A stretch of 64,000 nt of DNA from Kappaphycus alvarezii (lineage: Eukaryota > Rhodophyta > Florideophyceae > Gigartinales > Solieriaceae), in the NCBI GenBank assembly GCA_002205965.3, contig NADL03000527.1, positions 186,001-250,000 on the forward strand, written 5' to 3'. The translations under genes and the position numbers were made by a program. Positions 13,081 to 63,946 of this stretch are shown here, piece by piece. Within the stretch, counting starts at the first letter, position 1. Each line of letters starts with the position of its first letter. The notes under the pieces were generated by a model. That model was not told the DNA's origin, did no database searches, and saw nothing but the letters and a program-made list of their open reading frames with translations.

Positions 13081-13084
13081 TAAA

Positions 13085-25668: not shown

Positions 25669-26711
25669 ATGTGCTCCGCCGCGCCGGACTCGATCACCCC
25701 TCGCGTAGTGGCGCGCTCATCATCGGACCAGAAGTCGCGAGCGATGCGTCAGACCGCCCAGGCATCGCTTGACCTCACCGCCGACCTCACCGCCGACCTC
25801 ATCGCCGACCTGTCAAAGGTCACCGACCTATCGCTCACCAACGCCCCGGAAGTCCTTCTCAACACGCTGCGCAACGACCCTGCCTTGGCCTCAGCCTTCT
25901 ACTGCCTCCGCAGCACCCCCGCTGCCAAGAACGTCGTTAAGTTCCTCGCCCTTGTCGCCTCCGCCGATGACACCCCCGACCCCACAACTGCCACACCCAC
26001 CCTCAAGCAACGCCTTATCTCAACGCTGCTCGGCCTCCCCCGCCGAAACCTCCCACCCGCCTACCGATCCTCGGCCGCCGAACCGACGCCCCGCCCACCA
26101 GTCCTCCTGCCATCCATCCCTCCCTCCAGAAGAGCATCAACCGCATCGGCGCACGCCTGGTGAACAATGGCCCTAAACAGTTCGTTAAGGTCTGCACCCC
26201 ACGCGAGACCCGTCCCCTTCGTAACGCACTCTCCCTCCGGGAAGCCCTCACAGCCGGTGGGTTCCCTGGTTCCGTCACAGTGGTGCCCACGGCTGACCAG
26301 CACACATCCTTCGTCTGTGCACCCGCTGACACCCTCACGCATACTCAAACTGCGTACGACGCTTTCCGCCAGCACTGCCCTGCCACCCTTCCTCCAATCG
26401 CCGTTTCCGCACCCGCCCCTATCGTCGCCCACTGCACCTCGGACGACGATGCCCGCTCGCTCCTTCCACGCCTCCGAGCTGAAGCCGACCGCCTCAAGGA
26501 TCCCTCATGTCTGTGGAGGCCCAAACATTACTTCGTGGAAGTCCTCGAAACCTTGATCGCCGACATCCACTCCCAATTCTCGCCCGCTGCACCCTCCCCG
26601 CCCGCACCCCTCCCGATGAGTCGGAGTCGGCTGCTAAGCGACTTCGCCTTAACGGCGCAACCCCCCCCGCCTGCCGCCTCCTCCGCCACCGCCACCCCGG
26701 CCACACAATGA
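25669..26711 (+). pseudogene. E1 ORF1 (RT-RLE family B), function unknown
   Basis: Frames 25669-26163 and 26160-26711 form one ORF interrupted by one apparent single-base deletion in a C/T run near 26122. The first half is Ala/Thr/Leu-rich with LTADLTADLIADL. The second half has a block NNGPKQFVKVCTPRETRPLRN, LREALTAGGFPGSVTVVPTAD. The counterpart in E2 (49337-50334) is clearly homologous (NNGPKEFALVSTPRDQRPLRN). I do not recognise a domain; no zinc knuckle is visible. ORF1 proteins of non-LTR elements usually bind RNA, but that is inference. The stop overlaps the ORF2 start as ATGA (26708-26711), pointing to coupled termination-reinitiation. Confidence 0.8.
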
Positions 26712-29576
26712 GCGGGACCCCACTCACTCAACCGCAACATTGCCCACCTCCCTCCATTATATTCTCCCTCCCCATACCAACCCTACCATACCTCCCCAAC
26801 TCCCTGAAGGTGCCTTTTCACGACCTGTTTGCGCAGATCTGTCGCCGGTACGTTGAATCCCGGGCCTGTTCCTCCCGACGTGAATACCTCCACCGCCTGC
26901 TCGCCCTCCCCAAGCTAGTTCTTCGTAAGGATGGCCGCGGTGAACCGCGGAACCGCCACCGCCCAAGTGCTATCGCCTCCATCAAGCGACGTATCCTCCT
27001 CGCACGGGCTGGTCAATGGAGTCAATTACTGCATGAGGCGACAGACGCCTTCGCCGCAATTCAAAATCGAAACCCTACCCCTCGAGGGACCCCTGCAGAG
27101 AGATGCAGGCGCGCCCTGCTCAACGGCTCCTCCCGGAAAGCTACCCAGGCCCTGCGCTGCCCTATACCACCTGTCCCCGCAACACAGGCCAACGCTGCGA
27201 AACTCATCGCTCTCCACCCCTCACCCTCGCTCTCGGTCGAGGCCGCTCCTAGATCGCGCCTGCCTCGCGCATTCAAATTCACGGCCGCAGAAGTACGTCG
27301 CGAACTCCGTCGACTGCCTCACCATTCTAGCCCAGGACCCGACGGCCTCCGCCCTGCCATTCTGCGCTTGATCGCCCACGCTCCGGGTGGTGCCGAACCT
27401 TCCAACAGCGCCCTCGACTGGCTCACCAAACTTTTGAACTGCATCGTGGACGGCGACGCGCCGTCTGAGCTCGGGGAGTACCTTGCCGGAGCAACACTTG
27501 TAGGTCTCCCTAAAGACCCACCATGCCGTAGTTTGCGACCAATCGCTGTCGGACTCCTCATCAGGCGCCTCATCGGACGCCTCATCATGAAACGTGTGCC
27601 CCAACAAGCGGCTCTATCGGCATACCAACGCCCGGTCCAACTCGCGGTTGGGTACCCTCAGCTACCGAAGCAATCGCCCACGCCGTTCGGGAGCAAATCC
27701 GCCAGCTCGCGCCCTCCTCCACTCCACACGTCCTCATCCAGGTCGATGCCAAAAAAGCAATCAACTCCGTGGAAAGTCGCGTCAACCTCGCCGAAACAAT
27801 CACATGGCTGCCCGAGGCCTCCCGCTTAGTGCACTTCCTGTACGGTTCCGACTCGCGACTCATGTTCGGCCGCCACATCATACGCAGCCGCACCGGGACC
27901 CAACAGGGGGACCCCCTGGGAATGCTCCTGTTCGCCCTCGCGCTGCAACCTCTACTCATGGAACTCCGCAGTACCTTTCCCCACCTTCCACTTAACGCCT
28001 GGTACGCGGACGACGGTAATCTCATCGTGCCACTGGAACAAGCCAGATCCGTGCTCGTATTTCTCTCCGACCGCGGACGACACTCTGGATTCCATATTTA
28101 CCTAGCCCACCACAAGACTTCCGCATGGTGGCCGACCGCCTCGTCCCAGGACCGCCTCCATGCCGCCGCCTTGCCATGCGATTTCAAGACCGAGGAGGCG
28201 ATCACTGTGCTCGGCAGCCCAGTCGGCCGCCCCGCAGCATGCCTCCGCCTCGTTGACGATACCCTTGACACCATCCGCACGTTTTAGGCGTCTCTCGTCA
28301 TGCAGAACGACCCCCATATCGCCTTTCAGGTCCTTCGGTTCTGCGCATCCTCCTGTCGGCTCATGTATCTTTTCCGCAGTACCCCGCCGCCCTTAACCGG
28401 TGCCCTTGCCAAGCCGTTTGACGAGGGATTGCGACGGGTATTCGAAAAGATACACCGCCGCCAAACCGACACAGGCTGGACCCAAGCCACACTCCCATTC
28501 CGCCTGGGTGGGCTCGGCCTTAGCCAGACCCAAGGCGTTCACATCATCGCCTACACGGCATCCTTCCTCGGCAACTCCGCACTCGCGCAACAGGTTTTCG
28601 GCCCCACCCCTCTCCGCCCTGCCCGCCTCCTCGCTCCATCCTATGACCCCCTTGCAATCGCCCTCGACCTCCCACTCAACCTGCAACTTGAGAGCGTAAT
28701 CTCTCGAACGTCCCGACTCGGCACCTCCAAGACGAAATCACAGCATACCTCCACACCGACACCCTACATCGGCTACAAAATCTGACACCCGCATCCTCCA
28801 CCCACCACCGCGCCCGTTTGGCGGCCGCTGCCTCAACCGCCGCATCCGCTCCATTCTACACCCTACCGCTATCCGGCAACGACCTCTACATCAAAGCCGA
28901 GGTCTGGCGCACTATGGTTGATGTCCGCCTCGGGAACCCTCTATTCGATGGCTCTCGTCTCTGTCCGATGTGCTCCACAACATCCGCCCAGCACCTCCCC
29001 GTACTCGACGCACCCGGTCACCACGCCTCCGTCTGTAAGGGCGCAGTAGGTGCGGTGAGGCGGCACAACCGTTTACGAGACACTCTCTACCGCCACCTCA
29101 CCAACCCTGCCGTTGCCCTGTCTGTCTCACGAGAACGGGCTCTGGCGGCCGACCTCCACAAAAGCCCGGCCGAACAACGGAAACTTGACCTCGTCATCGA
29201 CGACCCCCTCTTCGCTCCCTCCCCGCAAGGAATCGACGTCACCATCGTCAGCCCGCACTCTCGCCCCTACCGAGACCTCGCCGATGGCGGAACATCCGCG
29301 CTGGAACGAGCCACCCTGAAGAAGCACAACTACTACGGCCCCCCTTGCCGGTCCGAGGGCATCGAACTGCGCCCCTTGGCAATCGACGTTTATGGCCAGA
29401 TCGACATCTCCGGCCTCCAGCTCCTCCAGGACATCGCCAACTGCACCGCCGCTAGGCGGGGAAAGCCTGCCTTCACGGAGCTTCGCGCGCTTCGTACAAT
29501 GATGTCAGCATTAGCGCAGCGGTATACTTCCGTCATAATCAACCAGCGCAAATTCTGTGCGGTTGAACCCCAATAG
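26708..29576 (+). pseudogene. E1 ORF2: RT with C-terminal restriction-like endonuclease
   Basis: Starts at ATG 26708 (MSGTPLTQPQHC). RT motifs in order: SSPGPDGLRPAI, RSLRPIAVGLLIRR, degraded motif A IQVDAKKAINSVE, motif B GTQQGDPLGMLLFALAL, motif C WYADDGNLIVP and LGSPVGRP. The thumb region follows (DEGLRRVFEKIHRR). The C terminus has a Cys/His cluster (CPMCSTTSAQ...GHHASVC), RRHNRLRD, and a nuclease-like core with KSPAEQRKLDLVIDD and GIDVTIVSP. Breaks: a one-G loss in GGGG near 27650, a TAG at about 28285, and a frameshift near 28705. The first and last could be sequencing errors. AATAAA lies at 29619-29624. The whole unit, 25669-29576, is 3.9 kb. Confidence 0.9.
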
Positions 29577-29618
29577 GTCCAGCCGGGGCCGTACGGTCCC
29601 CTCGTAATGCATTTTGGC

Positions 29619-32388: not shown

Positions 32389-34812
32389 CTATTTGTTTGC
32401 AAAGTCTCTCATCTGTATCTCTGGGCGCAAGAAAACCGCGGGCAGTTGCCAATGTCGTAGAGAATTCGTACTCTCCTTGAATGCTAAAGTGGCGGTGGCG
32501 TCGTAGGCCACTGGAAGAGCCGTCGGTGTGCGCATGGCATCAGACCGCGGGGACACAAAGATGTCTGCGGGTCGCACGTCCAAGTAAGGGAGTAGGTACT
32601 TCGCTTCACACTGAACACTGACACCTGCCGCCTTGAACAGCTCTCGGCCCAAGTATTCGCACCACTGCGTTATGCCGGTTGGTCCATCCGAGGCTTTTGT
32701 TGGATAGGTCTGTCGCGTGGTGGCCTAGGTGGTCCATGTGCTTATTGCATTCGGGGCACATCAACAGCGTGGTGTCGTCAAACACGCGGACTCCCTGGTG
32801 GCGATGTAGCATCACCGACCACATCGCATCGGACGTGTGGCTGACCACAGACGGATGTACTGTGAGGAAGGCTGCTGCAGACGTCTCAATTTATGCCTGA
32901 CTGCGGATCCTTCGCCGGATATCCAGTTCAGAGTGCATCGTGGGGCTTGGAAACCTCGCCCATGCTTCATCTCTCCAGAACTGTTTTGCTGCTGACTCGG
33001 CCCAGGCTCGATATAATAGAGTGTGTGTATTATCGGGCTTTGCACCAAGGCTGGCTGCTGTCGGTGACTCTGGATGACCTCCATATCCATTGGAGGACGA
33101 GGATGTGTGGAGCCGTCGGGCAAACTCAAAGAGGTGTCGGTCCGCCCCTATGTATCTATGTATGTATTTTGCGTTGGGAGTTCCGATGCACCAGGGTCGC
33201 TAAGGCTCCTCAGTTGTTCTGAGGTTATGACGCTGGCAGCAAATGCTGCAAAGTTCAGCGTTACCACAGGAGTGAAACCATGACCGCCATGGCGCTTAAA
33301 TGAAGCCTCACCTGTTTCCGGACCGCGTCAGACATTTGGACATTGTTTGATCGCGCGTACTACTCCATCTGCTCACTATCAAATCGTTGTGCAAGGTCAC
33401 TTGTCGCGCTCTGCGGGGCTAGCTTCTCCACATGTTTTAGTTTGCATGCTGAGGCACAGACGCGGTGGAGGTGAAACCGGATTCGAGCGTCACCAATCCC
33501 GTCAATCAGAGACAACGTCTTGATGCAATCGTCTAGTTTCCCCTTGCGAAAACCCTCCATGTACTGACGCGATCCAATCGGGGCACCTAGAAGGTCAATC
33601 TCTTCATCGGAGAAGTTCTCTCTTGCGAAGGAGCGCAAGAGTGGTGTTGGCCGGATGACAGGCTGACGTGGCCGGTATAGACCTATACGCGTTATGGCAG
33701 GGTTGAGAAAAAGGCCATGGTCGGGTCCTTTTGAAGAAAGGAAGTCAATCGCTTTTTCGAGCTCAGCATGTGTGCCGATAAGGGTACAGTCATCTGCATA
33801 CCCGCGGTGTAGACCAAGTTGTGTCCGCTTCGCGATTACCTTTGCTAGCGGATGTACTCTAAGGGAAAACATCAGCATACTTGCCGAATCTCCTTGCTGC
33901 ATTCCTTCCTAAATGCGGATGTCTTCCGTAGACCCCGCAGGCAAGATTAATGACGGCATCTTGCGAGTTTACACCATGTTTAGGAAACGGCAAAGCGACG
34001 GTACCCGATATGGGAGCATGTCTATCATGTGATGTCTCGAGAATATGATCAACGCGTTTTGAGCACCCAGTGACACTAGCGCATAGTTCTCGTCGTGTTT
34101 TTTGCTCTTGACTAATCCCCGGGCGTTAGGAACAATCGCATCCAACCCGCCGGATACTCCGTTTGGTACTTGAAGAGGCGCCAGGTACTCCCTCGTTTTG
34201 TCCAGTGCCGGGGATAGCAGCACCTTGGTTACCAAACGCCGCAGGGCCGTCCGAATTGCGATGGGGTGGATGTTCTCTGGCCGACGTTGAATCGGGAGCA
34301 GCGTAACTGAGGAGATAGGGGGATTGTTTCTCCTGGGAGATCTCCATGGGCCAGTCTCTTCACAACTGTGGTGATGGCCAAGATGCCTGTCGTACCTGAT
34401 TCGAGACACACCTTTGTGTTGGCTAGCAGTCGCAGAAGCCGCGGGGACATTCTGTCAGGCCCGGCGCGGGGTTTGGGTTCAGGCGTCGGACAGCGCTCAG
34501 AACCGCCGCCTCTGGAATGTCTGTGGGGAACAGAAGGTCTCTAGCGACTATGACCTTGACTGGCGACATTGGCGCTGGTTGCATCTTCCGCAGGTGTTCT
34601 CGAACCCGTTGGTCATTAACGTCGGCAATGCGGGACTGGTACAAGGTATATATCGCATACCCATATTGTGCATCTGTAGCTAAGTGGACTGCTCTGCGGA
34701 ATTTGGGGTGATGCCTGGTGTCCTTCTGCGGTGGGCGACAACGGGCAACGGCCGAGTACCGTATGGATCTCAGAAATGCAGGTGCCACTAAGGAGCCAAC
34801 GAAGGGAGTCAA
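32389..34812 (-). pseudogene. RT-RLE family C relic, RT plus nuclease
   Basis: Read downward. The N-terminal part (34812-34423) leads to NPNPAPGLTECPRGF. RT follows at 34300-33960 (HPIAIRTALRRLVTKVLL, LAPLQVPNGVSGGLDAIV), with motif A ruined (VSLGAQNALI). Motif B is MQQGDSASMLMFSL (~33900) and motif C GYADDCTLIGT (~33805), then LGAPIGSRQ. The C-terminal part (33129-32389) has CPECNKHMDHLGHHATD, a TNRHNAV motif and a PD-type nuclease core RPADIFVSPR...AYDATAT. At least five frame changes. The order matches families A and B, but the sequence is a separate family, shared with 12109-13080. Confidence 0.82.
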
Positions 34813-48950: not shown

Positions 48951-49336
48951 AAACCCCGTTTGGGACGCCCCCATGATTTCTGCTGCCGTGACAAACAACA
49001 TGCTCGCATTGCAGTACAGGTCGCGATGTCGCAATCCTTGTCACTCATGCATTCACTCGGCTAGTCGTCATCCGCTAACTGGCTACCAGCTCATGTAAAG
49101 GCAATCACCGCCTCGCAACCACGCTTCCACAACAGGGCCATCACACCCTTTTACCTACCAATTAGACGTTAGCCTCTAGTGAATTCACTCATCGTATTCA
49201 ATCACCGTACTCAAATCGTTCTCGATCTTCTTCACCCAAACTCTCCACGGAAGTACAAAAGGCATCTTCGTTTCGCTCCTCCTCCTATGTCTGCCCCCGA
49301 ACCTGCCGCGGGGGGCCTGCGCCACCGTCGCAGGAT
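48951..49336. other. Probable 5' region of E2
   Basis: No gene seen. The part next to 49337 is likely the 5' UTR of the RT-RLE element. Confidence 0.4.
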
Positions 49337-50334
49337 GTGATGCGCCAAGCAGCACACGCCTCCCTCAATTTGTTCATGGACCTCGTCCAACGTCTTTCGG
49401 CAGTTACCGATCTCGCGGCCCGCGACGCTCCTTCCACCCTCTTCGAACTGCAGCGCTCTGACTCAGCGCTATCCACGGCCTTTGGCTTCCTCCGAAGTAC
49501 CGCCGAGGCCGCCAACGTCGCCAAGTTCCTGGCCCAAATCGCCGACGTCTCTCCCCCCCCGCCATGCCGCCTGCCGCACCGGATCACGCTCCCTCGCCCT
49601 ATCTCGCCGCTGCTCTCCGCCAGCCAGCGCCGAAATCCCCGCCCATCCGTCTTCCGTTGCTAGGTCGCAACACACCCCCGCCCAATGTTGCTCCGCCGAC
49701 CCACCCGACGCTGCAGAGGAAAATAAACCGCATCTCCGTCCGGCTTGTCAACAACGGGCCAAAGGAGTTTGCCCTGGTCTCCACACCACGCGACCAGCGC
49801 CCACTCCGCAACGCCCTGTCCCTCCGTAAGGCCTTAACCGCTGGGGGCTTCCCTGGCTCCATCACCGTCGTCCCCACCGCCGATCCACACGCAACCTTCG
49901 TCTGCGCCGCCGCCGACTCCATCCAACATACGCAATCCACCTACGACGCTTTCCGTGGCCACTCAGAATCCTCCCTTCCCCCCATCACCGTTTCTCCCCC
50001 CTCCCCTATCATTTCTCATTGCCGTTCCATTGCAGCGGCCCAATCCCTCCTACCCACCCTCCAAGCCGAGGTCGCGCGCCTCTCCAACCCCGCCTGCGCC
50101 TGGAGATCCAAGCAATACCTCATAGAAGTGCTGCACTCCTCCATCACGGACATAACGGCCCGCTACCCTGAGCTCGCCCCACCCGCCAATCCCGCCAACC
50201 TCCCGCCGCCCAACCCGTCTCCTCCATCCCCTCCTCAAAATCCTGGTCCTGCCAAACGTCTACGTTCCTCTGGACCTGAACCAGACTCTAACATGGAGGA
50301 AGCCTCACCACCCGCGCCCTCTTCCTCGGAGTAA
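49337..50334 (+). pseudogene. E2 ORF1 (RT-RLE family B), one apparent frameshift
   Basis: Two frames, 49337-49580 and 49564-50334, join if the 8-C run at 49553-49560 had nine. The product matches E1 ORF1 along its length (RQAAHASLNLFMDLVQRLSA, then INRISVRLVNNGPKEFALV, LRKALTAGGFPGSITVVPTA) and ends Pro/Ser-rich. No known domain recognised. The stop TAA (50332-50334) overlaps the ORF2 ATG (50334) as TAATG, a configuration used for translational coupling in some non-LTR elements such as SART1. With one C restored the ORF would be about 333 residues. Confidence 0.82.
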
Positions 50335-51384
50335 TGGCTGCCCCAACCTCTGGACTTACCCATAGATGTCCGCCTCCCTCGATTGTCTTTCCACTCCCTG
50401 TCCCTACCCTTCCCTATCTTCCAAATTCCCTTCGCCTTCCTTTTCACTCCCTGGTGGCAAGTCTTTGCAGGCGATTCGTTGAAGCCCGCACTACACAGGC
50501 ACGCACTGACAACCTCTACAAAATCATGGCCCTTGCGAAACTGGTTCTACGCAAGAACGGCCGAGGTGAACCACGAAACCGGCATCGCCCGAGCCTAGTC
50601 GCCTCCCTCAAGCGAAGGATCAGACTAGCACAAGAGGGGCAGTGGTCCCACCTCCTTGACGAAGCCGCTGACGCCTTTGGCGCAGTCCTCCACCGCAAAG
50701 AAATTCCCATCCGATCCCAACAAGACCGCTGCAAGCGGGCATTGCTCAACGGTTCTCCACACAAAGCCGCCCAAGCCCTCACTGCTGCAGCCCCATCAGT
50801 CCCGCCCACCTTGGCAAATGCCGACAAGCTCCGGTCCCTCCATCCCGCTCCTTCCAATCCCGCAAACCGATCCGACAGAGGTACCCTGCCCCCGCCGTAC
50901 AAGTTCACCGAAGCCGAAGTCCGCCGCCAGCTGCGACGACTCCCGTACCACAGCAGTCCTGGCCCGGATGGACTTCGCCCCTCCATACTCAAGGCTCTTG
51001 TACACGCCCCTGGCGGGGCCGAGCCCTCGAACTCGGCCCTCAAGTGGCTCACTGCCTTCATCAACAGTCTGGTCGACGGGAATTGCCCCACTGAGACTAG
51101 TGAATATGTCGTAAGCGCTACCCTATTGGGCCTCCCGAAAGATGAAGCATGTCGCACCCTCCGCCCCATAGCCATTGGCCTTGCCATCCGTCGACTTGTA
51201 GGGCGCCTGGTAATGAAACGAATTCGAGGTGATCAAGAGATGGCCAACTACCTGCAGCCCCATCAACTCTGTGTAGGTGTCCCGTGTGCTACAGAAGCCA
51301 TCGTCCATGCCACTCGGGCACGCATACACGAACTGCAGAACAATTACACCGCCCACGTGCTCATTCAAGTTGATGCCCGAAACG
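50334..51384 (+). pseudogene. E2 ORF2, 5' half: RT up to motif A
   Basis: Open from ATG 50334 (MAAPTSGLTHRC). It carries SSPGPDGLRPSI, RTLRPIAIGLAIRRLVGR and HVLIQVDARN, where the second catalytic block (motif A) starts. The sequence leaves homology to E1 at 51384, in the middle of the Asn-Ala codons, and the coding text resumes in frame at 60864 as AFNSIERS. The break is the insertion of the 9.5-kb LTR element. The open frame running to 51497 beyond the junction is chance. Only this insertion disrupts the half; no internal frameshift is visible. Confidence 0.93.
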
Positions 51385-51630
51385 TGAAACAGGTGAATGA
51401 CCGTTGCAACCTCGGTACATGCTATCATACTGAATGCAATACGTTGGGACGCCCAGTGTCAGATTACTTTGAATATATGTGTCCTTTGAATATTTGAATG
51501 GCTGAAGGGTCGTGATTCGATAGGTCATTGCAGCATATAAGGCTTGAATGGATGAAGGAGATGGCATGAATAGAGGATTGGAGGTATCGGTTTTCAGATG
51601 GAGTAAAGACCATGTTCCTCTGTTGTTTCA
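51385..51630 (+). repeat. LTR 1 (5' outer)
   Basis: 246 bp, TG...CA. TATAAGG at 51536-51542 is a plausible promoter. Its left half matches LTR 4, while its right half (from about 51520) is identical to LTRs 2 and 3, so it is a recombinant. Confidence 0.85.
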
Positions 51631-51631
51631 C

Positions 51632-51643
51632 TGGTAGCATCGC
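51632..51643 (+). other. Primer-binding-site-like sequence
   Basis: TGGTAGCATCGC, one base after LTR 1. The same sequence follows LTR 2 (54743) and LTR 3 (57854) but not LTR 4. TGGTAGC is complementary to the GCTACCA 3' end of initiator tRNA-Met. Confidence 0.6.
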
Positions 51644-52170
51644 AACAAGTCTCGGCGAATGAGAGGTTGTCGGTAGGAGGAAAAGTCCAGGACCGGTCCA
51701 TGCTGCGTGGTATGGGACGCGTAGTATGTAAAAAAAGTTATGGTCTACCGAAACTGGAGTGCCAGTTTAGGTTGCCCATCAGCGTCTGTGATGGCGTTTG
51801 TATTGGGTCTTTTTCTCAGGCTGCTCGGTCGTGGAATAGACGAGGAGGCTGCGTTGAAAAGCCCAGCGTTGAGCGAAAGGCTCAAGTTTGCAAAGACGTG
51901 GGGGTTACGTTGAAAAGCACGGCTCCAGGCAAGAGGCTCGGAGAACGTGGAAGCTACGGTTAAACGCTGTGTGTTTTCTGTCGGGACAATACAGAGTCGC
52001 ATGAACCCAGCAAGTGATGAACTGCCGATTAGCAGTGGCTGGGCTGCTCAGAACAATGGCGGAGAACTTTAATTTGGCCGGATGCCATTTGAACTTGAAT
52101 TGGAATGAGCCTGTGACCGGCTTGGAATGGGTCTTCGATAGGCTCTAGAGAGCTTCTCCAGCACTTATTG

Positions 52171-54310
52171 ATGTCAACAAATCGAGTGCCCGTTGGAAGA
52201 GGCATACGTTGTGCACTACAAAAAAAAAAGAAAAAAAACCAAGGACTTGGTGCAAGATATTACAAGAAAGGTATCCACACGCCTTCCGATGTTACGATGA
52301 TAAGCCGCGAGGTCGGCCCTCACTGCCGAACTCACCAAAGCGTCACCATGTCCCGGGCGATGCCTACCGCCTTCCGTCATTCGTACAACGCTTTTGTTTG
52401 CCACTTTCGTCTGTTCACCACCATAAGTGCTCAGCCCGCGTGTTTATCAGCTTCTTCAGGCGCGCCTGTTGGTAAATCCTTTCGTTCAAATCTTCTCCGT
52501 ATTGACAAACGGCCCTTTTCGCGGTTTTGCTTGTTACCAATCAAGCGCGCGATTACGGTGTCTTGTACCGAACCACCCCGTGGGAAGCCGGATGCGCGAC
52601 AGAACGGGCGTCTACCATCTTTCGAAGGCGCCGGCGTCAGGGTTGCTCGTGAGTTTGTGAGAGACGAAGAGGTTTTAGACAGAGTGGAATGGGACCGGGA
52701 AAAAGACCTGGATTCGCTTGCGCAAGAGCTCGTAGAACTACATGAAGAACTTCAAGACGCTTTGGCCTCAAAAAGTGAAGTTAGCATAGCGCAAGGGGAA
52801 AACGTCCGCGTAGAACATCTTGGACATGGAGTTTACGTGCAGCATAACGTTATGGCCTTAGATCGCGACGGGCAAAAGGAATCACCACTTACTATTACCC
52901 GTGAGGAGAGCAGAAGTTGCGTAAGGCATGCATTAGACGCCTTGCAGAGTGAATTTGCTGTAGCTGTGACTGGTCAGCCAGGTATCGGAAAAACTCGAGG
53001 CTCTATGATGTATGCCATCCAGTGTCTTCTTTACCGCAAGAGTGCTGTGTTGTACGTTGGGTACAAGTCGGAGGAAATGCTGCTGTTTTTACCAAAAGAA
53101 GACGGTAAGTACCGGGTTTGGAGCGGAAACCCAGCAAAGTTTAGAGAATCAAGATTCATTAGGGAGGAACGTGTGGTAACTGTCATTGATCCTCCGGAGG
53201 AGGGACCCTACAGTTCAATGGGTAAGTGCCGAGTACTCAAATTTGTTTCGAACAATGCTGAAAACACTTCAGAAACTGGGAAAAGGACGGCATTCTGCTG
53301 GTAACGTCGATGCCTACGGAGGAAGAGGTCATCGCGATGACAAAAGTTTTGTGGGACGAAGAGAAGTCTGCACACCCATGGCAAATCGATACACTCAATA
53401 CGGTGGAGGAGCAAATGGCGGAAATTGAGAAACGAATTGAGCTCGTTGGAGCTATTCCTCGTCTTGTATTTGACTCGGGACTGTTTTTAGATGCAGTCTG
53501 TGAGCACGTACAAGGCGCTGCTGAGGCGGGAGAAAAAGTTTCTGATTTCGATCTGTACAAGGCCTTGCGTGGAAAGTACTCAACATTCCTCGCGAAGCAT
53601 CCTGCTACCGCTTCGTCAAGACTTTTACTTTTGAATCCAAAGACAGTGAACCACCACACATGGAAAGAACGAAGGATGCAGCGTCCCACATTCCAGCTGA
53701 CACCCATTGCGACTCTGGTTCTTCGTGACCGTCTGGAGAAAAGCATCATTGCATTGAGGACGGAAAACTTTGAGGACTTTGCTTTTGACTGGCTTTGTGA
53801 GACTGAGGGGAGAAAAGCAGAAGTTCAGTACGTTTCAGAGGGTAATCATGACACTGCGTACCAAAGAATCGCTTCAATGGACCGGAACGAGCTTCGTGTG
53901 TATCGCCCAGCTGCGGGCAACTTTCCGTTTATTGATTTTGCCACAGGTTGCAAAACTTGGTACAACGCAAGTCCATTGGGAAGGGCGTCAAAACAGTGAA
54001 AGTTGACGAAGACGGAGCGAGAAGATTCCTTGATAATCTGGAAAGGGTATTAGTGGCGAACAATTCTTCTGGTGACATCCAAAGCATTGTAAGGCACAGC
54101 AACCCTGTGCTTACCGTCCTAACCAATGGTAACACAGAGCCAACGTTACGCGACCCGACAGCCGCGTTAAACCTTTTGGGTGCGCGAGTGATTCTGAGGG
54201 TGGTGAACGTCTCTGAGATGTCTGCAATTGGAGAGCTGTTGGATCGCATTGATCGAACGCAGGTACTCCTTAGTGAATTGGAGAAACAGGTTGCAGGAGG
54301 CCTGCGTTGA
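52171..54310 (+). pseudogene. RHS/Crinkler-like P-loop NTPase, copy 1
   Basis: Starts at ATG 52171. The first 160 residues are basic and low in known motifs. After an acidic helix (DRVEWDREKDLDSLAQEL) comes a P-loop NTPase: Walker A GQPGIGKT (residues 268-275, nucleotides 52972-52995) and a Walker B-like RVVTVIDPPEE. The text that follows (LKFVSNNAE, TSMPTEEEVIAMTKVLW, RIELVGAIPRLVF) matches the order of conserved blocks in trypanosome retrotransposon-hot-spot proteins and in the NTPase of Crinkler effectors. The C terminus (FEDFAFDWLCETEGR, NFPFIDFATG.KTWYNAK) is the expected place for a nuclease-like domain. Single-base losses near 53263 and 53970 break the frame; otherwise about 713 residues. 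In other species such proteins act on DNA or chromatin; no role is proven here. Confidence 0.8.
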
Positions 54311-54482
54311 GCGCTCCCCGGTGGTGTAGTAACGAACAAGGATATGTTAACGACGTTTTGGATTTGTACTCGGTCTCGACAGGATGTGGGAATGTGATGC
54401 CCTCGAGTAGAAATGAGACTGTGCCTTTTTTTGGTGTGAGAATGAATTGACGCGGACGTCAATTGATGCGAGGTGCCTATGG

Positions 54483-54741
54483 TGAAACAGGTTTAGTGAC
54501 CATTGACCTCGTCTAATGCTAGCAGGTTGCAGCCACTGGGTTCGGACGCCCCACATCCAGATGATTGTGAATTTATCCGTTTCTAATGTCACTGTCGACA
54601 GTACTTGAACGGATGAAGGGGCGTGAGGTGATAGGTCATTGCAGCATATAAGGCTTGAATGGATGAAGGAGATGGCATGAATAGAGGATTGGAGGTATCG
54701 GTTTTCAGATGGAGTAAAGACCATGTTCCTCTGTTGTTTCA
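54483..54741 (+). repeat. LTR 2 (internal)
   Basis: 259 bp, same ends as LTR 1. Its first half is a diverged U3 variant, shared with LTR 3 but not with LTRs 1 and 4. Confidence 0.82.
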
Positions 54742-55281
54742 CTGGTAGCATCGCAACAAGTCTCGGCGAATGAGAGGTTGTCGGTAGGAGGAAAAGTCCA
54801 GGACCGGTCCATGCTGCGTGGTATGGGACGCGTAGTATGTAAAAAAAGTTATGGTCTACCGAAACTGGAGTGCCAGTTTAGGTTGCCCATCAGCGTCTGT
54901 GATGGCGTTTGTATTGGGTCTTTTTCTCAGGCTGCTCGGTCGTGGAATAGACGAGGAGGCTGCGTTGAAAAGCCCAGCGTTGAGCGAAAGGCTCAAGTTT
55001 GCAAAGACGTGGGGGTTACGTTGAAAAGCACGGCTCCAGGCAAGAGGCTCGGAGAACGTGGAAGCTACGGTTAAACGCTGTGTGTTTTCTGTCGGGACAA
55101 TACAGAGTCGCATGAACCCAGCAAGTGATGAACTGCCGATTAGCAGTGGCTGGGCTGCTCAGAACAATGGCGGAGAACTTTAATTTGGCCGGATGCCATT
55201 TGAACTTGAATTGGAATGAGCCTGTGACCGGCTTGGAATGGGTCTTCGATAGGCTCTAGAGAGCTTCTCCAGCACTTATTG

Positions 55282-57421
55282 ATGTCAACAAATCGAGTGC
55301 CCGTTGGAAGAGGCATACGTTGTGCACTACAAAAAAAAAGAAAAAAAAACCAAGGACTTGGTGCAAGATATTACAAGAAAGGTATCCACACGCCTTCCGA
55401 TGTTACGATGATAAGCCGCGAGGTCGGCCCTCACTGCCGAACTCACCAAAGCGTCACCATGTCCCGGGCGATGCCTACCGCCTTCCGTCATTCGTACAAC
55501 GCTTTTGTTTGCCACTTTCGTCTGTTCACCACCATAAGTGCTCAGCCCGCGTGTTTATCAGCTTCTTCAGGCGCGCCTGTTGGTAAATCCTTTCGTTCAA
55601 ATCTTCTCCGTATTGACAAACGGCCCTTTTCGCGGTTTTGCTTGTTACCAATCAAGCGCGCGATTACGGTGTCTTGTACCGAACCACCCCGTGGGAAGCC
55701 GGATGCGCGACAGAACGGGCGTCTACCATCTTTCGAAGGCGCCGGCGTCAGGGTTGCTCGTGAGTTTGTGAGAGACGAAGAGGTTTTAGACAGAGTGGAA
55801 TGGGACCGGGAAAAAGACCTGGATTCGCTTGCGCAAGAGCTCGTAGAACTACATGAAGAACTTCAAGACGCTTTGGCCTCAAAAAGTGAAGTTAGCATAG
55901 CGCAAGGGGAAAACGTCCGCGTAGAACATCTTGGACATGGAGTTTACGTGCAGCATAACGTTATGGCCTTAGATCGCGACGGGCAAAAGGAATCACCACT
56001 TACTATTACCCGTGAGGAGAGCAGAAGTTGCGTAAGGCATGCATTAGACGCCTTGCAGAGTGAATTTGCTGTAGCTGTGACTGGTCAGCCAGGTATCGGA
56101 AAAACTCGAGGCTCTATGATGTATGCCATCCAGTGTCTTCTTTACCGCAAGAGTGCTGTGTTGTACGTTGGGTACAAGTCGGAGGAAATGCTGCTGTTTT
56201 TACCAAAAGAAGACGGTAAGTACCGGGTTTGGAGCGGAAACCCAGCAAAGTTTAGAGAATCAAGATTCATTAGGGAGGAACGTGTGGTAACTGTCATTGA
56301 TCCTCCGGAGAGGGACCCTACAGTTCAATGGGTAAGTGCCGAGTACTCAAATTTGTTTCGAACAATGCTGAAAAGCATTTCAGAACTGGGAAAAGGACGG
56401 CATTCTGCTGGTAACGTCGATGCCTACGGAGGAAGAGGTCATCGCGATGACAAAAGTTTTGTGGGACGAAGAGAAGTCTGCACACCCATGGCAAATCGAT
56501 ACACTCAATACGGTGGAGGAGCAAATGGCGGAAATTGAGAAAAGAATTGAGCTCGTTGGAGCTATTCCTCGTCTTGTATTTGACTCGGGACTGTTTTTAG
56601 ATGCAGTCTGTGAGCACGTACAAGGCGCTGCTGAGGCGGGAGAAAAAGTTTCTGATTTCGATCTGTACAAGGCCTTGCGTGGAAAGTACTCAACATTCCT
56701 CGCGAAGCATCCTGCTTCCGCTTCGTCAAGACTTTTACTTTTGAATCCAAAGACAGTGAACCACCACACATGGAAAGAACGAAGGATGCAGCGTCCCACA
56801 TTCCAGCTGACACCCATTGCGACTCTGGTTCTTCGTGACCGTCTGGAGAAAAGCATCATTGCATTGAGGACGGAAAACTTTGAGGACTTTGCTTTTGACT
56901 GGCTTTGTGAGACTGAGGGGAGAAAAGCAGAAGTTCAGTACGTTTCAGAGGGTAATCATGACACTGCGTACCAAAGAATCGCTTCAATGGACCGGAACGA
57001 GCTTCGTGTGTATCGCCCAGCTGCGGGCAACTTTCCGTTTATTGATTTTGCCACAGGTTGCAAAACTTGGTACAACGCTAAGTCCATTGGGAAGGGCGTC
57101 AAAACAGTGAAAGTTGACGAAGACGGAGCGAGAAGATTCCTTGATAATCTGGAAAGGGTATTAGTGGCGAACAATTCTTCTGGTGACATCCAAAGCATTG
57201 TAAGGCACAGCAACCCTGTGCTTACCGTCCTAACCAATGGTAACACAGAGCCAACGTTACGCGACCCGACAGCCGCGTTAAACCTTTTGGGTGCGCGAGT
57301 GATTCTGAGGGTGGTGAACGTCTCTGAGATGTCTGCAATTGGAGAGCTGTTGGATCGCATTGATCGAACGCAGGTACTCCTTAGTGAATTGGAGAAACAG
57401 GTTGCAGGAGGCCTGCGTTGA
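55282..57421 (+). pseudogene. RHS/Crinkler-like P-loop NTPase, copy 2
   Basis: Nearly identical to copy 1 (unit spacing 3111 bp). It has its own two single-base losses: a G near 56308 (GGAGGAGGG in copy 1, GGAGAGGG here) and a G near 56381 in CAGGAACTGG. The site broken in copy 1 at 53970 is intact here (ACGCTAAGTCC), so the second half (56420-57421, 333 residues) is one continuous frame. Different breaks in otherwise identical copies imply either very recent decay or sequencing error. The Walker A and B blocks and the C-terminal region are as in copy 1. Confidence 0.8.
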
Positions 57422-57593
57422 GCGCTCCCCGGTGGTGTAGTAACGAACAAGGATATGTTAACGACGTTTTGGATTTGTACTCGGTCTCGACAGGATGTGG
57501 GAATGTGATGCCCTCGAGTAGAAATGAGACTGTGCCTTTTTTTGGTGTGAGAATGAATTGACGCGGACGTCAATTGATGCGAGGTGCCTATGG

Positions 57594-57852
57594 TGAAACA
57601 GGTTTAGTGACCATTGACCTCGTCTAATGCTAGCAGGTTGCAGCCACTGGGTTCGGACGCCCCACATCCAGATGATTGTGAATTTATCCGTTTCTAATGT
57701 CACTGTCGACAGTACTTGAACGGATGAAGGGGCGTGAGGTGATAGGTCATTGCAGCATATAAGGCTTGAATGGATGAAGGAGATGGCATGAATAGAGGAT
57801 TGGAGGTATCGGTTTTCAGATGGAGTAAAGACCATGTTCCTCTGTTGTTTCA
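57594..57852 (+). repeat. LTR 3 (internal)
   Basis: 259 bp, essentially identical to LTR 2. Confidence 0.82.
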
Positions 57853-58393
57853 CTGGTAGCATCGCAACAAGTCTCGGCGAATGAGAGGTTGTCGGTAGGA
57901 GGAAAAGTCCAGGACCGGTCCATGCTGCGTGGTATGGGACGCGTAGTATGTAAAAAAAAGTTATGGTCTACCGAAACTGGAGTGCCAGTTTAGGTTGCCC
58001 ATCAGCGTCTGTGATGGCGTTTGTATTGGGTCTTTTTCTCAGGCTGCTCGGTCGTGGAATAGACGAGGAGGCTGCGTTGAAAAGCCCAGCGTTGAGCGAA
58101 AGGCTCAAGTTTGCAAAGACGTGGGGGTTACGTTGAAAAGCACGGCTCCAGGCAAGAGGCTCGGAGAACGTGGAAGCTACGGTTAAACGCTGTGTGTTTT
58201 CTGTCGGGACAATACAGAGTCGCATGAACCCAGCAAGTGATGAACTGCCGATTAGCAGTGGCTGGGCTGCTCAGAACAATGGCGGAGAACTTTAATTTGG
58301 CCGGATGCCATTTGAACTTGAATTGGAATGAGCCTGTGACCGGCTTGGAATGGGTCTTCGATAGGCTCTAGAGAGCTTCTCCAGCACTTATTG

Positions 58394-60532
58394 ATGTCAA
58401 CAAATCGAGTGCCCGTTGGAAGAGGCATACGTTGTGCACTACAAAAAAAAAGAAAAAAAAACCAAGGACTTGGTGCAAGATATTACAAGAAAGGTATCCA
58501 CACGCCTTCCGATGTTACGATGATAAGCCGCGAGGTCGGCCCTCACTGCCGAACTCACCAAAGCGTCACCATGTCCCGGGCGATGCCTACCGCCTTCCGT
58601 CATTCGTACAACGCTTTTGTTTGCCACTTTCGTCTGTTCACCACCATAAGTGCTCAGCCCGCGTGTTTATCAGCTTCTTCAGGCGCGCCTGTTGGTAAAT
58701 CCTTTCGTTCAAATCTTCTCCGTATTGACAAACGGCCCTTTTCGCGGTTTTGCTTGTTACCAATCAAGCGCGCGATTACGGTGTCTTGTACCGAACCACC
58801 CCGTGGGAAGCCGGATGCGCGACAGAACGGGCGTCTACCATCTTTCGAAGGCGCCGGCGTCAGGGTTGCTCGTGAGTTTGTGAGAGACGAAGAGGTTTTA
58901 GACAGAGTGGAATGGGACCGGGAAAAAGACCTGGATTCGCTTGCGCAAGAGCTCGTAGAACTACATGAAGAACTTCAAGACGCTTTGGCCTCAAAAAGTG
59001 AAGTTAGCATAGCGCAAGGGGAAAACGTCCGCGTAGAACATCTTGGACATGGAGTTTACGTGCAGCATAACGTTATGGCCTTAGATCGCGACGGGCAAAA
59101 GGAATCACCACTTACTATTACCCGTGAGGAGAGCAGAAGTTGCGTAAGGCATGCATTAGACGCCTTGCAGAGTGAATTTGCTGTAGCTGTGACTGGTCAG
59201 CCAGGTATCGGAAAAACTCGAGGCTCTATGATGTATGCCATCCAGTGTCTTCTTTACCGCAAGAGTGCTGTGTTGTACGTTGGGTACAAGTCGGAGAAAT
59301 GCTGCTGTTTTTACCAAAAGAAGACGGTAAGTACCGGGTATGGAGAGGAACGACCGACGATTTCTCCCGTTCACAGTTCAAGCAGGAGCAGCGGGTAGTA
59401 GCAGTAATTGATCCTCCTGAAGAAGGGCCGTATTCGTCAATGGGTGAGTGCCGAGTACTCAAATTTGTTTCGAACAATGCTGAAAAGCATTTCAGGAACT
59501 GGGAAAAGGACGGCATTCTGCTGGTAACGTCGATGCCTACGGAGAAGAGGTCATCGCGATGACAAAAGTTTTGTGGGACGAAGAGAAGTCTGCACACCCA
59601 TGGCAAATCGATAACTCAATACGGTGGAGGAGCAAATGGCGGAAATTGAGAAAAGAATTGAGCTCGTTGGAGCTATCCCGCGCCTTGTCTTCGCATCGGA
59701 ATTGTTTGGACTAGCAATCAGAGGGTGCCTACAGGGTGCTGAAGTAAGTACCGAAAAGCTCACTGATTCGGACCTGTACAAGGCTCTCCGAGGGAAGTAC
59801 AGACCACTTCTCGAGAAGCACCCAGCATCTGCATCGTCAAGAGTTTTCTTTTTGAGCCCAAAGACGTTGACATTCAGGACATGGAAGGAAAGATCGCGGC
59901 ATCCCGCTGCTTTCCAGCTTTCCCCCATAGCAATACTTGTTCTTCGTGACCGTCTGGAGCATAGCATTGAGGTCTTGAGGAAGGACAAATTTGAAGACTT
60001 TGCGTTTGAATGGCTTTGTGAGAAACAAGGGCGGAAAGCTGAAATTCAATACGTTTCAGATGCTGATCACAGCAGTGCATACCAAAGAATTGCTTCGATG
60101 GATGAAGAAGAGCTACGAGTATATCGTCCTGCTGCAAATAACTTTCCATTTCTTGACTTTGCAACGAGCAAGACGACGTGGTACAATGCGAAGTCAATTA
60201 GTAAGGAGATCAAGACAGTGCCAATTGACGAAGACGGAGCTAGAAAATTCCTGGATAACCTGAAACGAGTTTTACTTGACAAGTATTCCTGTGATGAAGT
60301 CCAAGCCATACTAAGGCGTAGCAAGCCTGTGCTAACTGCCATAACTAATCGTGACGCTCATATAAGGTTTCGCGACTCGAAAGCGGCGTTAGACTTCTTT
60401 GGCCATCGTGTGATACTAAGGGTGGAGAACGTGTCTGATATGTCTCTAGCCGGAAATCTGTTGGAAGGTATTGATCGAACGACTGCGCTTCTTGATGAAT
60501 TCCAAAGGCAGCAAACAATAGATCTGGGTTGA
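58394..60532 (+). pseudogene. RHS/Crinkler-like P-loop NTPase, copy 3 (mosaic)
   Basis: Identical to copies 1 and 2 up to about 59338, including Walker A. It diverges at 59339-59440 (RGTTDDFSRSQFKQEQRVV), is nearly identical again at about 59441-59675, and diverges from there to the end (SELFGLAIRGCLQGAEVSTE, NFEDFAFEW equivalent KFEDFAFEW, then SCDEVQAILRRSKPVL). The second lineage keeps the same domain order, which shows the reading is real coding sequence under constraint. Single-base losses near 59296, 59541 and 59613 break the frame. Ends at 60532; LTR 4 begins 80 bases later. Confidence 0.8.
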
Positions 60533-60611
60533 AAGCCTCCTGGTTGTGCGGCTGTGCCTGTTTTTAATAGAAGCATTGACGCGGACGTCAATCGATGCGG
60601 GGTGTCTATGG

Positions 60612-60858
60612 TGAAACAGGTGAAATGACCGTTGCAACCTCGGTACATGCTATCATGCTGAATGCAATACGTTGGGACGCCCAGTGTCAGATTACTTTGA
60701 ATATATGTGTCCTTTGAATATTTGAATGGCTGAAGGGTCGTGAATCGATAGGTCATTGCACCATTTAAGGCTTGAATGGATGAAGGAGATGACATCAATA
60801 GAGGATTGGAGGTATCGGTTTTCAGATGGAGTAAAGACCATGTACCTCTAATGTTTCA
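60612..60858 (+). repeat. LTR 4 (3' outer)
   Basis: 247 bp, differing from LTR 1 at about ten positions, mostly in the right half. The TATA-like box reads ATTTAAGG here. Followed by AAACG and the resumed RT gene. Confidence 0.87.
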
Positions 60859-62688
60859 AAACGCCTTTAACTCAATCGAGCGTTCCAAAATTCTCTCTCA
60901 GGCAATCCGCCGCATCCCGGCGGCCGCACGATGGGTCCACTTCCTCTACGGGGCTCCTTCCCGCCTCTTCTTCGGCCGTCACCTCATATGGAGTCGAACT
61001 GGCACCCAACAGGGAGACCCCCTCGGCATGTTACTCTTTGCTATTGCCCTCCACCCCCTTGCACAAGGACTAGCATCCAATTTCCCTGCCCTCCCGCTTC
61101 ACACATGGTACGCTGACGATGGAACACTGATTGTTCCTACTTCACAAGCCCACGCCGTTCTCCACTACCTGCGCCTGAACGGCCCGAACTTCGGCTTCCA
61201 TGTTAACCTCAACAAAACGTCGGCCTGGTGGCCCTCTCCCTCACCACACGCTCTCCTACGTCACCTGCCATGCGACGTTCTCGCCTCTGAAGCTATCACG
61301 GTTCTTGGTAGCCCGATTGGCACCCTGGATGCATGCACTTCCCTGGCCATCAAAGCACTGCAGAAGGCCGAGTCACTCTGGACATCCCTCACAGCCATGA
61401 ACGAGCCTCGGATCTCATTCCACACTCTCCGATTCTGTGCCTCCTCATGTCTGGTTATATACTTGTTCCGCTCAACCCCGCCGCACATTACCTTCCCACT
61501 TGCCAAAGCTTTTGACAAGGGGTTGCGAAGGGTTTTCGAGCAAGTTCACCGGAAGATGTCGGACATCGCGTGGCTACAAGCCACGCTACCATTCCGCCAT
61601 GGCGGCCTCGGGCTCACCCCATGCACTTCCGTCAACGTCATCGCATACAAGGTCTCCAATCTGACGAACATGCCACTCATTCGGCGTCTACTGCACACAA
61701 ACTCCACGCATGTTGCCAGGCTTTTGGCCCCATCCTACGACACCCTGGCCACAAGTTTGAACCTCCCTGCAGAACTACGACTAGAGGCACTCTTGTCACG
61801 ATCGAACCACATCGACCACAACGCCGCTCGCTCCCTCCAGGAAGAAATCACCAGTCACTTCCACCGCTCACGCCTCTCCCTACTACGCGCTTCGGCCCCT
61901 TCCACCTCTTCATCGCATTTTTTTACGCGGCTCGCCTCGACAACCTCCTCAAAGGCTTCCGCTCCCTTCTCAACACTTCCGCTACCGTCCACTGACCTAT
62001 ACACCTCAGGGGAGCTATGGCGCACGATGGTCGACCTTCGCTTAGGTAACCCAATATTCTGCGGCCTCAGGCGCTGCCCTACCTGCCTGGAAGGTAACTA
62101 TACTGTTCCCCCGCTCCTGGATACCGTGGGCCACCACGCATCCACTTGCAAAGGGGGTGTGGGTGCGGTGCGCCGTCACAACCGTCTCGGGATATTCTTT
62201 ACCGGGAACTTACTAGCCCGGCCATCTCCCTCACCGTAATTCGGGAGCGAGTCTTTGCCGCCGACCTTCACAAGAGCCCAGCCGAGCAACGCGCACTGGA
62301 CCTCGTCATCGACGACCCCTTATTCGCGCCCACACTACAGGGTATTGACGTCACGATTGTCAGTCCTCACTCGGCATCATATCGCAACCAGGCAGATGGA
62401 GGTCTCTCAGCACTGACACGAGCCGAAAAGCGCAAAAGGGAACACGATGCGCTACCCTGTCGTGCCGAGGGTATGGAGCTTCTACCTATGGCCATCGACA
62501 TTTACGGACAAATTGGGCAACCGTACTCCAGGCGCTCGCTCCATGACATGAGTAACTTCACTGCTTACCGCCGAGGGAAGCATCCTATGTCTGAATTCCG
62601 GAAGCTCAAGACACGTGTCTCATTTGTTCTACAGTACACCGCAGTCATGATTAATCACCGAAGACGGAGAACGTACCCCACCACCTGA
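60859..62688 (+). pseudogene. E2 ORF2, 3' half: RT motif A to nuclease
   Basis: Resumes at the duplicated AAACG and reads AFNSIERSKILSQAIRRIP, then motif B GTQQGDPLGMLLFAIAL, motif C WYADDGTLIVP, LGSPIGTLDA and the thumb. The Cys/His cluster (CPTCLEGN...GHHASTC), RRHNRL and the nuclease core (KSPAEQRALDLVIDD, GIDVTIVSP) follow. The catalytic Asp pair of the RT is intact. One C is missing near 62187 (CTCGGG where E1 has an Arg-Asp pair), splitting the frame at 62239. Both halves of E2 sum to about 3.8 kb, close to the 3.9 kb of E1. Confidence 0.92.
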
Positions 62689-62732
62689 CGTCCAGACGGG
62701 GCTCTTGCCTGATCCCCCTCCAGAAGTCATGA

Positions 62733-62868: not shown

Positions 62869-63909
62869 TCATGGATTCGGCGCGTCATCCAATGTCAGCA
62901 CCACCTTTCCCACGCTTGTGCCACTCTGGAAATACTTGAGCGCCTCTACGGCATCCGAAAAATGAAACTCCCGTCCCACAATCGGCTTTCCCACGTTCAT
63001 TTCATCCAACGTTTTAAACCCCTTCCGAATCAGCGCCCGCTGCCCAAACAGATCCCCGACATTGAACCCGGCCACCGACTTGTTTTCGTTAATCGAGTGC
63101 ACCAGGTCCAACCGTGGTCGCCAAAGCCTTCTCCACCCCAGCTTGACCAAATTACGCCACCCAGACAGCCTCCATAAACTAATCCCACCACTAGGCATCA
63201 TACTCGCACTCCCCATCACAATATACTTTCCACCAGGATTCAACAGCGCATACCCAGGTGCAAAATACCTCCCCAACACCGAATCCACCACGACATCGAC
63301 CCCCCAACGCCGCCCAACGCGCGCTCCCTCACAGTCCTCTCCAGCCCCAAGGCAGCATCATCCACGCCTCTCACCACAATCTGCTCCCTCCGAACCCCCA
63401 TCTGCTCCACCAACAACCTGGCCTTATCCTCATTACCAACCGTACAAATCGGAATGCCACCAATCTCCTTCACCATAGCCACCAACTTACTGCCCACCCC
63501 CCGCAGCCGAATGAATCAACACAGCCCTCCTCTCCGACGTCAACAAGCCAGCACTCCCTTCAACCACACTCGGCATACCCCCCAACTCACAAAGCGCATA
63601 CCACGCCGTAAACGCCTGTACAGGATACGCGGCACCCTCCGCAAAGGTCCAACCGTCAGGAATGCGACGTACATACTCACCATCAATGTTCACAGCAGTG
63701 GCATAACAGCCGAATCGACGTATAGCCCATACACGATGACCAGGGCGAAAATCAGCGACCTCATTACCGACGGCATCAATGACACCAGAGACTTCGAAAC
63801 CAGGGGTGAATGGAGGCTGCCCTGCAAGGTCGTATAGGCCGAGCAGGGCGAAACAGTCTGCGAAATTCATACCGATGGCGCGGGTGTGGATGCGCACCTC
63901 GTGTGGTTT
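62869..63909 (-). CDS. MDR-family quinone oxidoreductase, VAT1-like (5' exon outside)
   Basis: Medium-chain dehydrogenase/reductase without structural zinc. From the 5' side: IGMNFADCFALLGLY, the PGFEVSGVIDAVG strand, GHRVWAI, then the Rossmann NADPH loop (HSAAGG, KLVAMVKEIGG) and VVDSVLGRYF. The VAT1-type C terminus follows (GGKYIVMGSASM, KSVAGFNVG, FSDAVEALKYFQSGTSVGKV), ending LTLDDAPNP. The family reduces quinones or enones with NADPH. Two apparent losses in G runs break it: near 63500 (inside the GGVG loop) and near 63328 (GGG GGG before the VDVVVDS strand). A 3' splice site precedes it at 63910. The catalytic domains are otherwise complete, so I read it as a real host gene with sequence errors. 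Confidence 0.85.
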
Positions 63910-63946
63910 CTGAGGGTGTGGATGGGTGGAATGGTGGGTTGGTTAG
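63910..63946 (-). other. 3' splice site and branch point
   Basis: In minus orientation, CTAAC (63946-63942) is followed by a C/T-rich stretch and CAG (63912-63910), and the MDR reading frame starts immediately after. An in-frame stop lies just upstream, so the gene must be spliced or start outside the window. Confidence 0.6.

Follow-up and report, generated by a model that had tools for sequence, protein, structure and literature searches.

A probable non-autonomous LTR retrotransposon with an RHS-type NTPase gene in the red seaweed Kappaphycus alvarezii

Introduction

How does a gene for an RHS-type NTPase come to lie between direct repeats in the middle of a reverse-transcriptase (RT) gene, and can this arrangement move? 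The question is raised by a stretch of 64,000 nucleotides from Kappaphycus alvarezii (G000:C523:186001-250000, hereafter the window; the assembly comprises 336 Mb in 884 contigs), where an element at positions 51380-60863 interrupts an RT gene and carries AAACG on both sides. An earlier sequence-only reading of the window had proposed that the gene is mobilised as cargo of a non-autonomous long terminal repeat (LTR) retrotransposon, and that this would explain how such families expand. Our analysis leads to a similar view: with a probability of about 0.87, we are dealing with a non-autonomous LTR retrotransposon that descends from a Ty3/gypsy family or parasitises it, and in which one RHS-type gene replaces gag-pol. 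The mobilisation part of the proposal is supported by dispersed LTR-gene-LTR units, by their target-site duplications and by cis blocks common with a Ty3/gypsy family; the expansion part stands for the dispersed units but not for the window site, where copy number grew otherwise.

RHS/Crinkler-type families are large and transposon-linked, and their multiplication has so far been argued mostly from neighbourhood. Here the vehicle itself is visible, in the form of LTRs, duplications, uninterrupted sites, one copy with identical LTRs and a gag-pol family with common cis signals, so that one direct route for multiplying RHS-type gene families is shown. With this locus an RHS-type family is also placed in a red seaweed, and the question why an LTR element keeps a non-structural gene coding can be studied in a natural system.

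Results

Structure of the element

The element is delimited by a 5-bp target-site duplication, AAACG, at 51380-51384 and 60859-60863. Immediately inside it lie two outer repeats of type A, LTR1 (51385-51630, 246 bp, TGAAACA...TGTTTCA) and LTR4 (60612-60858, 247 bp), with 237 identities over 246 aligned positions; these and all oriented features given below are on the forward strand unless stated. The duplication and the outer repeats had both been described in the sequence-only reading and were borne out by alignment, as were its TATAAGG box, seen in LTR1-3 (LTR4 has TTTAAGG instead), and its TGGTAGC sequence, which lies one base downstream of LTR1, LTR2 and LTR3. The two extra LTRs inside the element, LTR2 (54483-54741, 259 bp, common to units 1 and 2) and LTR3 (57594-57852, common to units 2 and 3), thus divide it into three tandem units of ~3.1 kb with LTRs in common. 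LTR2 and LTR3 are identical and differ from the outer repeats mainly in the 5' half (type B), matching LTR1 at 203 of 244 positions and LTR4 at 197 of 245.

LTR1-3 are each followed, after one base, by the primer-site-like sequence TGGTAGCATCGC. The LTR end and the primer site together form the block TGTTTCACTGGTAGCATCGC at 51624-51643, found again from 54735 and from 57846. The leader of unit 1 (51631-52360), whose first part is taken as non-coding, is repeated in units 2 and 3. At the other end of each unit, the block ATTGACGCGGACGTCAAT, common with the Ty3/gypsy family described below, stands 19 nt upstream of LTR2 (54446-54463), LTR3 (57557-57574) and LTR4 (60575-60592).

Each unit holds one copy of the NTPase gene, and the three copies claimed by the earlier reading were recovered, each broken into open pieces: copy 1 at 52117-53999 (overlapping pieces 52117-53304 and 53262-53999), copy 2 at 55228-57421 (55228-56538 and 56372-57421) and copy 3 at 58340-60532 (58340-59398 and 59615-60532), so that none of the three has a single open frame. 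Between copies 1 and 2 there is hardly any difference, while copy 3 has the same 5' half and a 3' half of another subtype, ~72% alike. Taken together with the type B sequence of LTR2 and LTR3, this divergent half indicates that subtypes A and B recombined. A Pfam scan of the five interior gene pieces detected neither gag nor RT nor integrase, its matches being to RHSP and, weakly, to NTPase families, and inspection by eye of the open-frame list found no further pol-like frame inside the element, in agreement with the reported absence of retroviral enzymes. The window had no Rfam match at the gathering cut-off, nor any hit in a bacterial-mode tRNA scan.

The interrupted site and its natural relatives

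The element splits an RT gene into a 5' part (50292-51379), which alone has no Pfam match, and a 3' part (60864-62239), which matches RVT_1 (E 1.4e-7). When the flanks were joined with a single AAACG, the resulting sequence, VDARNAFNSIER, lay in one open frame with no stop, as the earlier reading had noted. The joined 32 nt were matched, with 1-3 mismatches and no insertion, at 14 places in the genome, and a reversed-pattern control gave 0 matches. These 14 places are natural uninterrupted relatives of the insertion site.

Dispersal of LTR-gene-LTR units

A genome search with LTR1 gave 153 candidates, 40 of which, LTR1 itself included, were scored and listed. Around these matches we fetched 20 stretches, of which 17 carried the gene (two of them, L022 and L023, overlap) and three, L026, L039 and L040, held LTR sequence only. 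Ten copies could be read at both ends (the window, L024, L031, L037, L041, L042, L043, L044, L047 and L049); this count leaves out L033 for its truncated 5' LTR, copies with one side only, arrays extending beyond the fetched stretch and the other copies at the AAACG site. Exact 5-bp duplications flank eight of the ten and are all different (AAACG, CAGTT, GTGGG, CTCGG, GATGT, ACAGA, CACCC and TGTGG); in L049 the duplication holds at 4 of 5 bases and in L044 there is none. The single-unit copy L037 (C619) has LTRs identical at 247 of 247 positions, a sign of recent insertion, and L040 is a solo LTR, 81% identical to LTR1, with GGGCT on each side. The L040 stretch also holds a gene for V-ATPase subunit E; among the 120 listed of its 172 protein matches, the best that carry an organism name are red-algal (Agarophyton chilense 78%, Chondrus crispus 77%), and two nameless entries reach 92%, which agrees with a red-algal host. 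The further units with duplications of their own and the solo LTR that the sequence-only reading had suggested looking for therefore both exist in this genome. Subtelomeric spread was considered and rejected: the last 1 kb at one end of eight contigs held no array of TTAGGG, the only repeat tested.

A second search, with the NTPase protein, listed 122 matches, drawn from the 116 scored of 296 candidates. Ten gene loci were picked from it non-randomly, by protein match and with distant ones included; the contig of one of them, L050, also holds a copy at the AAACG site. All ten were flanked by an LTR match on one side or both, and the association is therefore not merely an effect of having used the LTR as query. 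These loci also bear on the possibility that a host RHS-like gene was recently retroduplicated by chance into an LTR element, with no lasting association. Plant LTR elements often capture retrogenes (PMC5664825). However, an LTR-free gene was found at none of the ten loci, a minority of the 122 protein matches, and six copies at only 35-55% identity to the query are also LTR-associated (in L048 by a partial match of ~77 bases). Since copies as divergent as these accompany LTRs, the association is not recent, and we regard a recent chance capture as very unlikely.

A Ty3/gypsy family with common cis signals

The 20-nt block of LTR end and primer site, TGTTTCANTGGTAGCATCGC, occurs at 388 genome sites when up to 1 mismatch is allowed, against 0 for the control. 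The 18-nt block ATTGACGNGGACGTCAAT, which stands 18-19 nt upstream of the 3' LTR in both the gene-bearing family and the family described here, occurs at 247 sites (control 0) and has no exact match in L035, L038, L044, L045, L046 and L048. All three gene-free primer sites that were sampled (L051-L053) proved to belong to elements with paired LTRs of ~420 bp and Ty3/gypsy-type frames. Above the Pfam cut-off, L051 has RT, while L052 and L053 both have the integrase zinc domain, the former together with RT and RNase H, the latter together with gag; matches to protease, integrase core and chromodomain in scans of pieces fell below cut-off. Exact 5-bp duplications flank all three (CATTA, GGGCC and ACAAG).

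The two families were then compared over the primer sites (77) and pre-3'LTR blocks (100) listed for contigs up to C513. Thirty of the 77 sites pair with a listed block and 47 do not. Seventeen pairs are 5.04-5.37 kb apart and have A (16) or G (1) as the free base, and 13 are 2.71-2.88 kb apart and have C in every case; no pair was found at any other distance below 7 kb. The families thus separate in length and in a diagnostic base while their cis signals are common, which is what is expected for a non-autonomous element and its helper. In a shuffle test of the two common blocks the best of 500 shuffles equalled or exceeded the real score (44 vs 44, or 47 vs 44), and for this reason our argument is based on how often the patterns and their controls occur across the genome. 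From these common cis sequences, the Ty3/gypsy family is probably the helper of the element, acting in trans.

The RHS-type NTPase and its constraint

The gathering score of RHSP (PF07999) is 25 bits. It is passed, mostly narrowly, by all six long open copies (25.3, 26.2, 26.3, 26.4, 27.1 and 31.4 bits), whereas the window's own gene pieces stay below it, the best being the second piece of copy 2 with 23.7 bits. The product is a P-loop NTPase of RHS type, probably STAND/AAA-like, with a plausible nuclease-like domain at its C-terminus. The proposed resemblance to RHS and Crinkler proteins accordingly stands on the RHS side, where the profile supports it, and is reduced on the Crinkler side to the domain plan: at E up to 0.1, neither the six long open copies nor five relatives, nor four additional N-terminal pieces, showed any Crinkler header or family. 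A sequence search of the PDB with the protein gave best matches of E 0.14 or worse, mostly antibodies, Foldseek with a model of the C-terminal part gave no match at E up to 0.001, and pattern matches in viral contigs (12) and genome contigs (40) included no confirmed relative of the protein.

The gene is under coding constraint across copies, with ratios of nonsynonymous to synonymous substitution (dN/dS) of 0.18-0.48 in 15 pairs from six open reading frames and of 0.31 when window copy 2 is compared with copy 3. That it stays coding over divergent copies would also be compatible with a different account, in which the element would move by means of an enzyme of its own, the NTPase with a possible nuclease, and use no Ty3/gypsy partner; Zhang et al. 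(2016) reportedly derive the NTPase-restriction endonuclease modules of Crinkler/RHS proteins from transposases. Against this, the terminal repeats are direct and not inverted, the ends are TG...CA, a primer site is present and the block before the 3' LTR is placed as in Ty3/gypsy elements, all of which makes an enzyme of this kind very unlikely to be the motor.

Copies at the AAACG site

The AAACG insertion of the window recurs in seven other stretches (L021, L022, L028, L030, L032, L034 and L036), with a varying number of units and, in L028 and L034, no recognisable 5' LTR. Their right flank is 98.8-99.8% alike, as far as 64000 in five, as far as 61734 in L022 and, in L021, over all that was fetched. 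We rejected their reading as independent insertions because of this common flank, did not count them as such, and read them as probable segmental duplicates or alleles of one event.

These copies, with near-identical right flanks, variable unit number and units in tandem in the window, argue for a reading in which the repeats are no LTRs and mark the borders between units of a tandem gene family that spreads by unequal crossing-over and segmental duplication. Such a process is likely for copy number at the window site. As the sole explanation it is refuted, and extremely improbable, in view of the eight different exact duplications, the solo LTR with a duplication of its own, the lone unit whose two LTRs are identical, the uninterrupted sites and the cis blocks common with Ty3/gypsy elements.

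Some of these copies have peculiarities of their own. A 5' LTR match ending at about position 177-182 recurs in L021, L032 and C204, and in L021 and L032 this short match continues, at the AAACG site, into a different leader, resembling an inherited internal deletion. In L028 and L034 the gene starts with a different N-terminal stretch, and upstream of the LTR-less gene copy of L028 lies an extra open frame (31-1119, 362 amino acids) with no Pfam match at E up to 0.01.

Discussion

Proposed mechanism and its weak points

Under the preferred reading, a non-autonomous LTR retrotransposon with an RHS-type gene in place of gag-pol, transcription would start in the LTR and a tRNA would prime at TGGTAGCATCGC; Gag, RT and integrase would be supplied in trans by the Ty3/gypsy partner, and the integrase would insert the copy, making the 5-bp duplication. 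One copy may then have inserted into a non-LTR element, within its RT gene, and become an LTR-sharing tandem array by unequal exchange or template switching, into which the second subtype (B) would have recombined.

Several points weigh against this account. The autonomous partner envisaged by the sequence-only reading has the LTR end, the primer site and the pre-3'LTR block in common with the element, but its LTRs are otherwise unlike the element's, and the frames are broken in all three copies read, with no intact helper copy seen. Searches with two initiator-tRNA patterns gave 0 hits and thus no tRNA to match the primer site, and where a polypurine tract is expected before the 3' LTR, the element has G-rich sequence with pyrimidine interruptions as opposed to clean purine in the partner. 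Copy number at the window site grew in place or together with its region, so that retrotransposition is not the sole way in which the family expands. Finally, the gene may serve the element, in which case "cargo" could be a misnomer.

Comparison with known systems

LTR elements with host genes are already known, and the closest precedent is that of retroduplicated plant NLR genes. As Kim et al. (2017, PMC5664825) describe, NLR genes of pepper and other plants lie inside non-autonomous LTR retrotransposons, and ~72% of the retroduplicated pepper NLRs are in LTR elements without gag/pol potential. Both cases concern a multicopy NTPase-type family in LTR elements mostly devoid of gag/pol and evidently moved in trans, and in both the captured genes are under purifying selection. 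The plant captures are described there as recent, lineage-specific, often from multi-exon parents and limited to a minority of the family (5-18%); here, by contrast, all ten gene-picked copies, divergent ones included, are LTR-associated, the cargo is of RHS type and the partner has common cis blocks.

The trypanosome RHS proteins (PF07999) resemble the product of our gene in the RHSP score passed by the six long open copies and in forming a multigene family. Trypanosome RHS genes are insertion sites of retroelements, of the ingi/RIME type, at a fixed hot spot; unlike these genes, which are known as targets, the gene described here sits inside the retroelement. Crinkler and RHS proteins are grouped together in PMC5289972, many of them with NTPase and restriction endonuclease (REase) domains, and the Crinkler/RHS-type (CR) effectors are presented there as NTPase plus helix-turn-helix plus REase. 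Our protein is similar in its NTPase followed by a possibly REase-like C-terminus and in its varied N-termini, and differs in that no Crinkler header was found, in its seaweed host and in its LTR-element carrier. For P. sojae, PMC3726527 mentions Polinton, Gypsy and Copia elements near Crinkler genes and suggests them as possible carriers of gene copies. The Ty3/gypsy partner (L051-L053), lastly, is like the element in LTR end, primer site, pre-3'LTR block and 5-bp duplication, and differs from it in its ~420 bp LTRs, with no LTR match outside the end, and in its gag-pol frames, broken in the copies read. The literature searched, which takes in part of what is published on Crinklers and LTR retrotransposons, contained no description of an RHS/Crinkler gene inside an LTR element; what appears new with respect to it is an RHS-type gene in a dispersed LTR element with a Ty3/gypsy partner.

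A bolder possibility, which we advance only tentatively and consider rather doubtful, is that the gene is no passenger: an RHS-type NTPase, probably joined to a nuclease, would have long been the main business of an LTR lineage, as a toxin- or defence-like enzyme kept under selection, spread in trans by a Ty3/gypsy helper and with its N-termini swapped by recombination. If this were true, RHS-like families elsewhere could descend from such elements and not merely adjoin or receive retroelements.

Neighbouring features

Several copies of a related non-LTR element were recognised by eye in the window, at ~12000-15400, 26000-29600, 33360-34450 (reverse strand) and 49100-62700, with motifs resembling the insertion site at 14064 and 27745; one RT piece of these copies scores 29.3 for RVT_1, just under the cut-off of 29.6. 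Two LTR-gene copies on different contigs, L045 and L046, have nearly the same sequence to the right of the 3' LTR, and in L046 a neighbouring open frame resembles, by eye, the RT of the window's non-LTR element, on the strength of which non-LTR elements may be frequent targets.

Adjoining the interrupted element, and inside the duplicated flank, is a quinone-oxidoreductase-like gene at 62869-63942 on the reverse strand, in two open pieces, the C-terminal one of which matches ADH_zinc_N_2 (46.1 bits). Farther away, a forward-strand frame of 443 amino acids at 30261-31592 matches the putative restriction endonuclease family Uma2 (33.7 bits, cut-off 27), a family that is unusual in a eukaryotic genome, and its protein ends in a repetitive coiled-coil-like tail.

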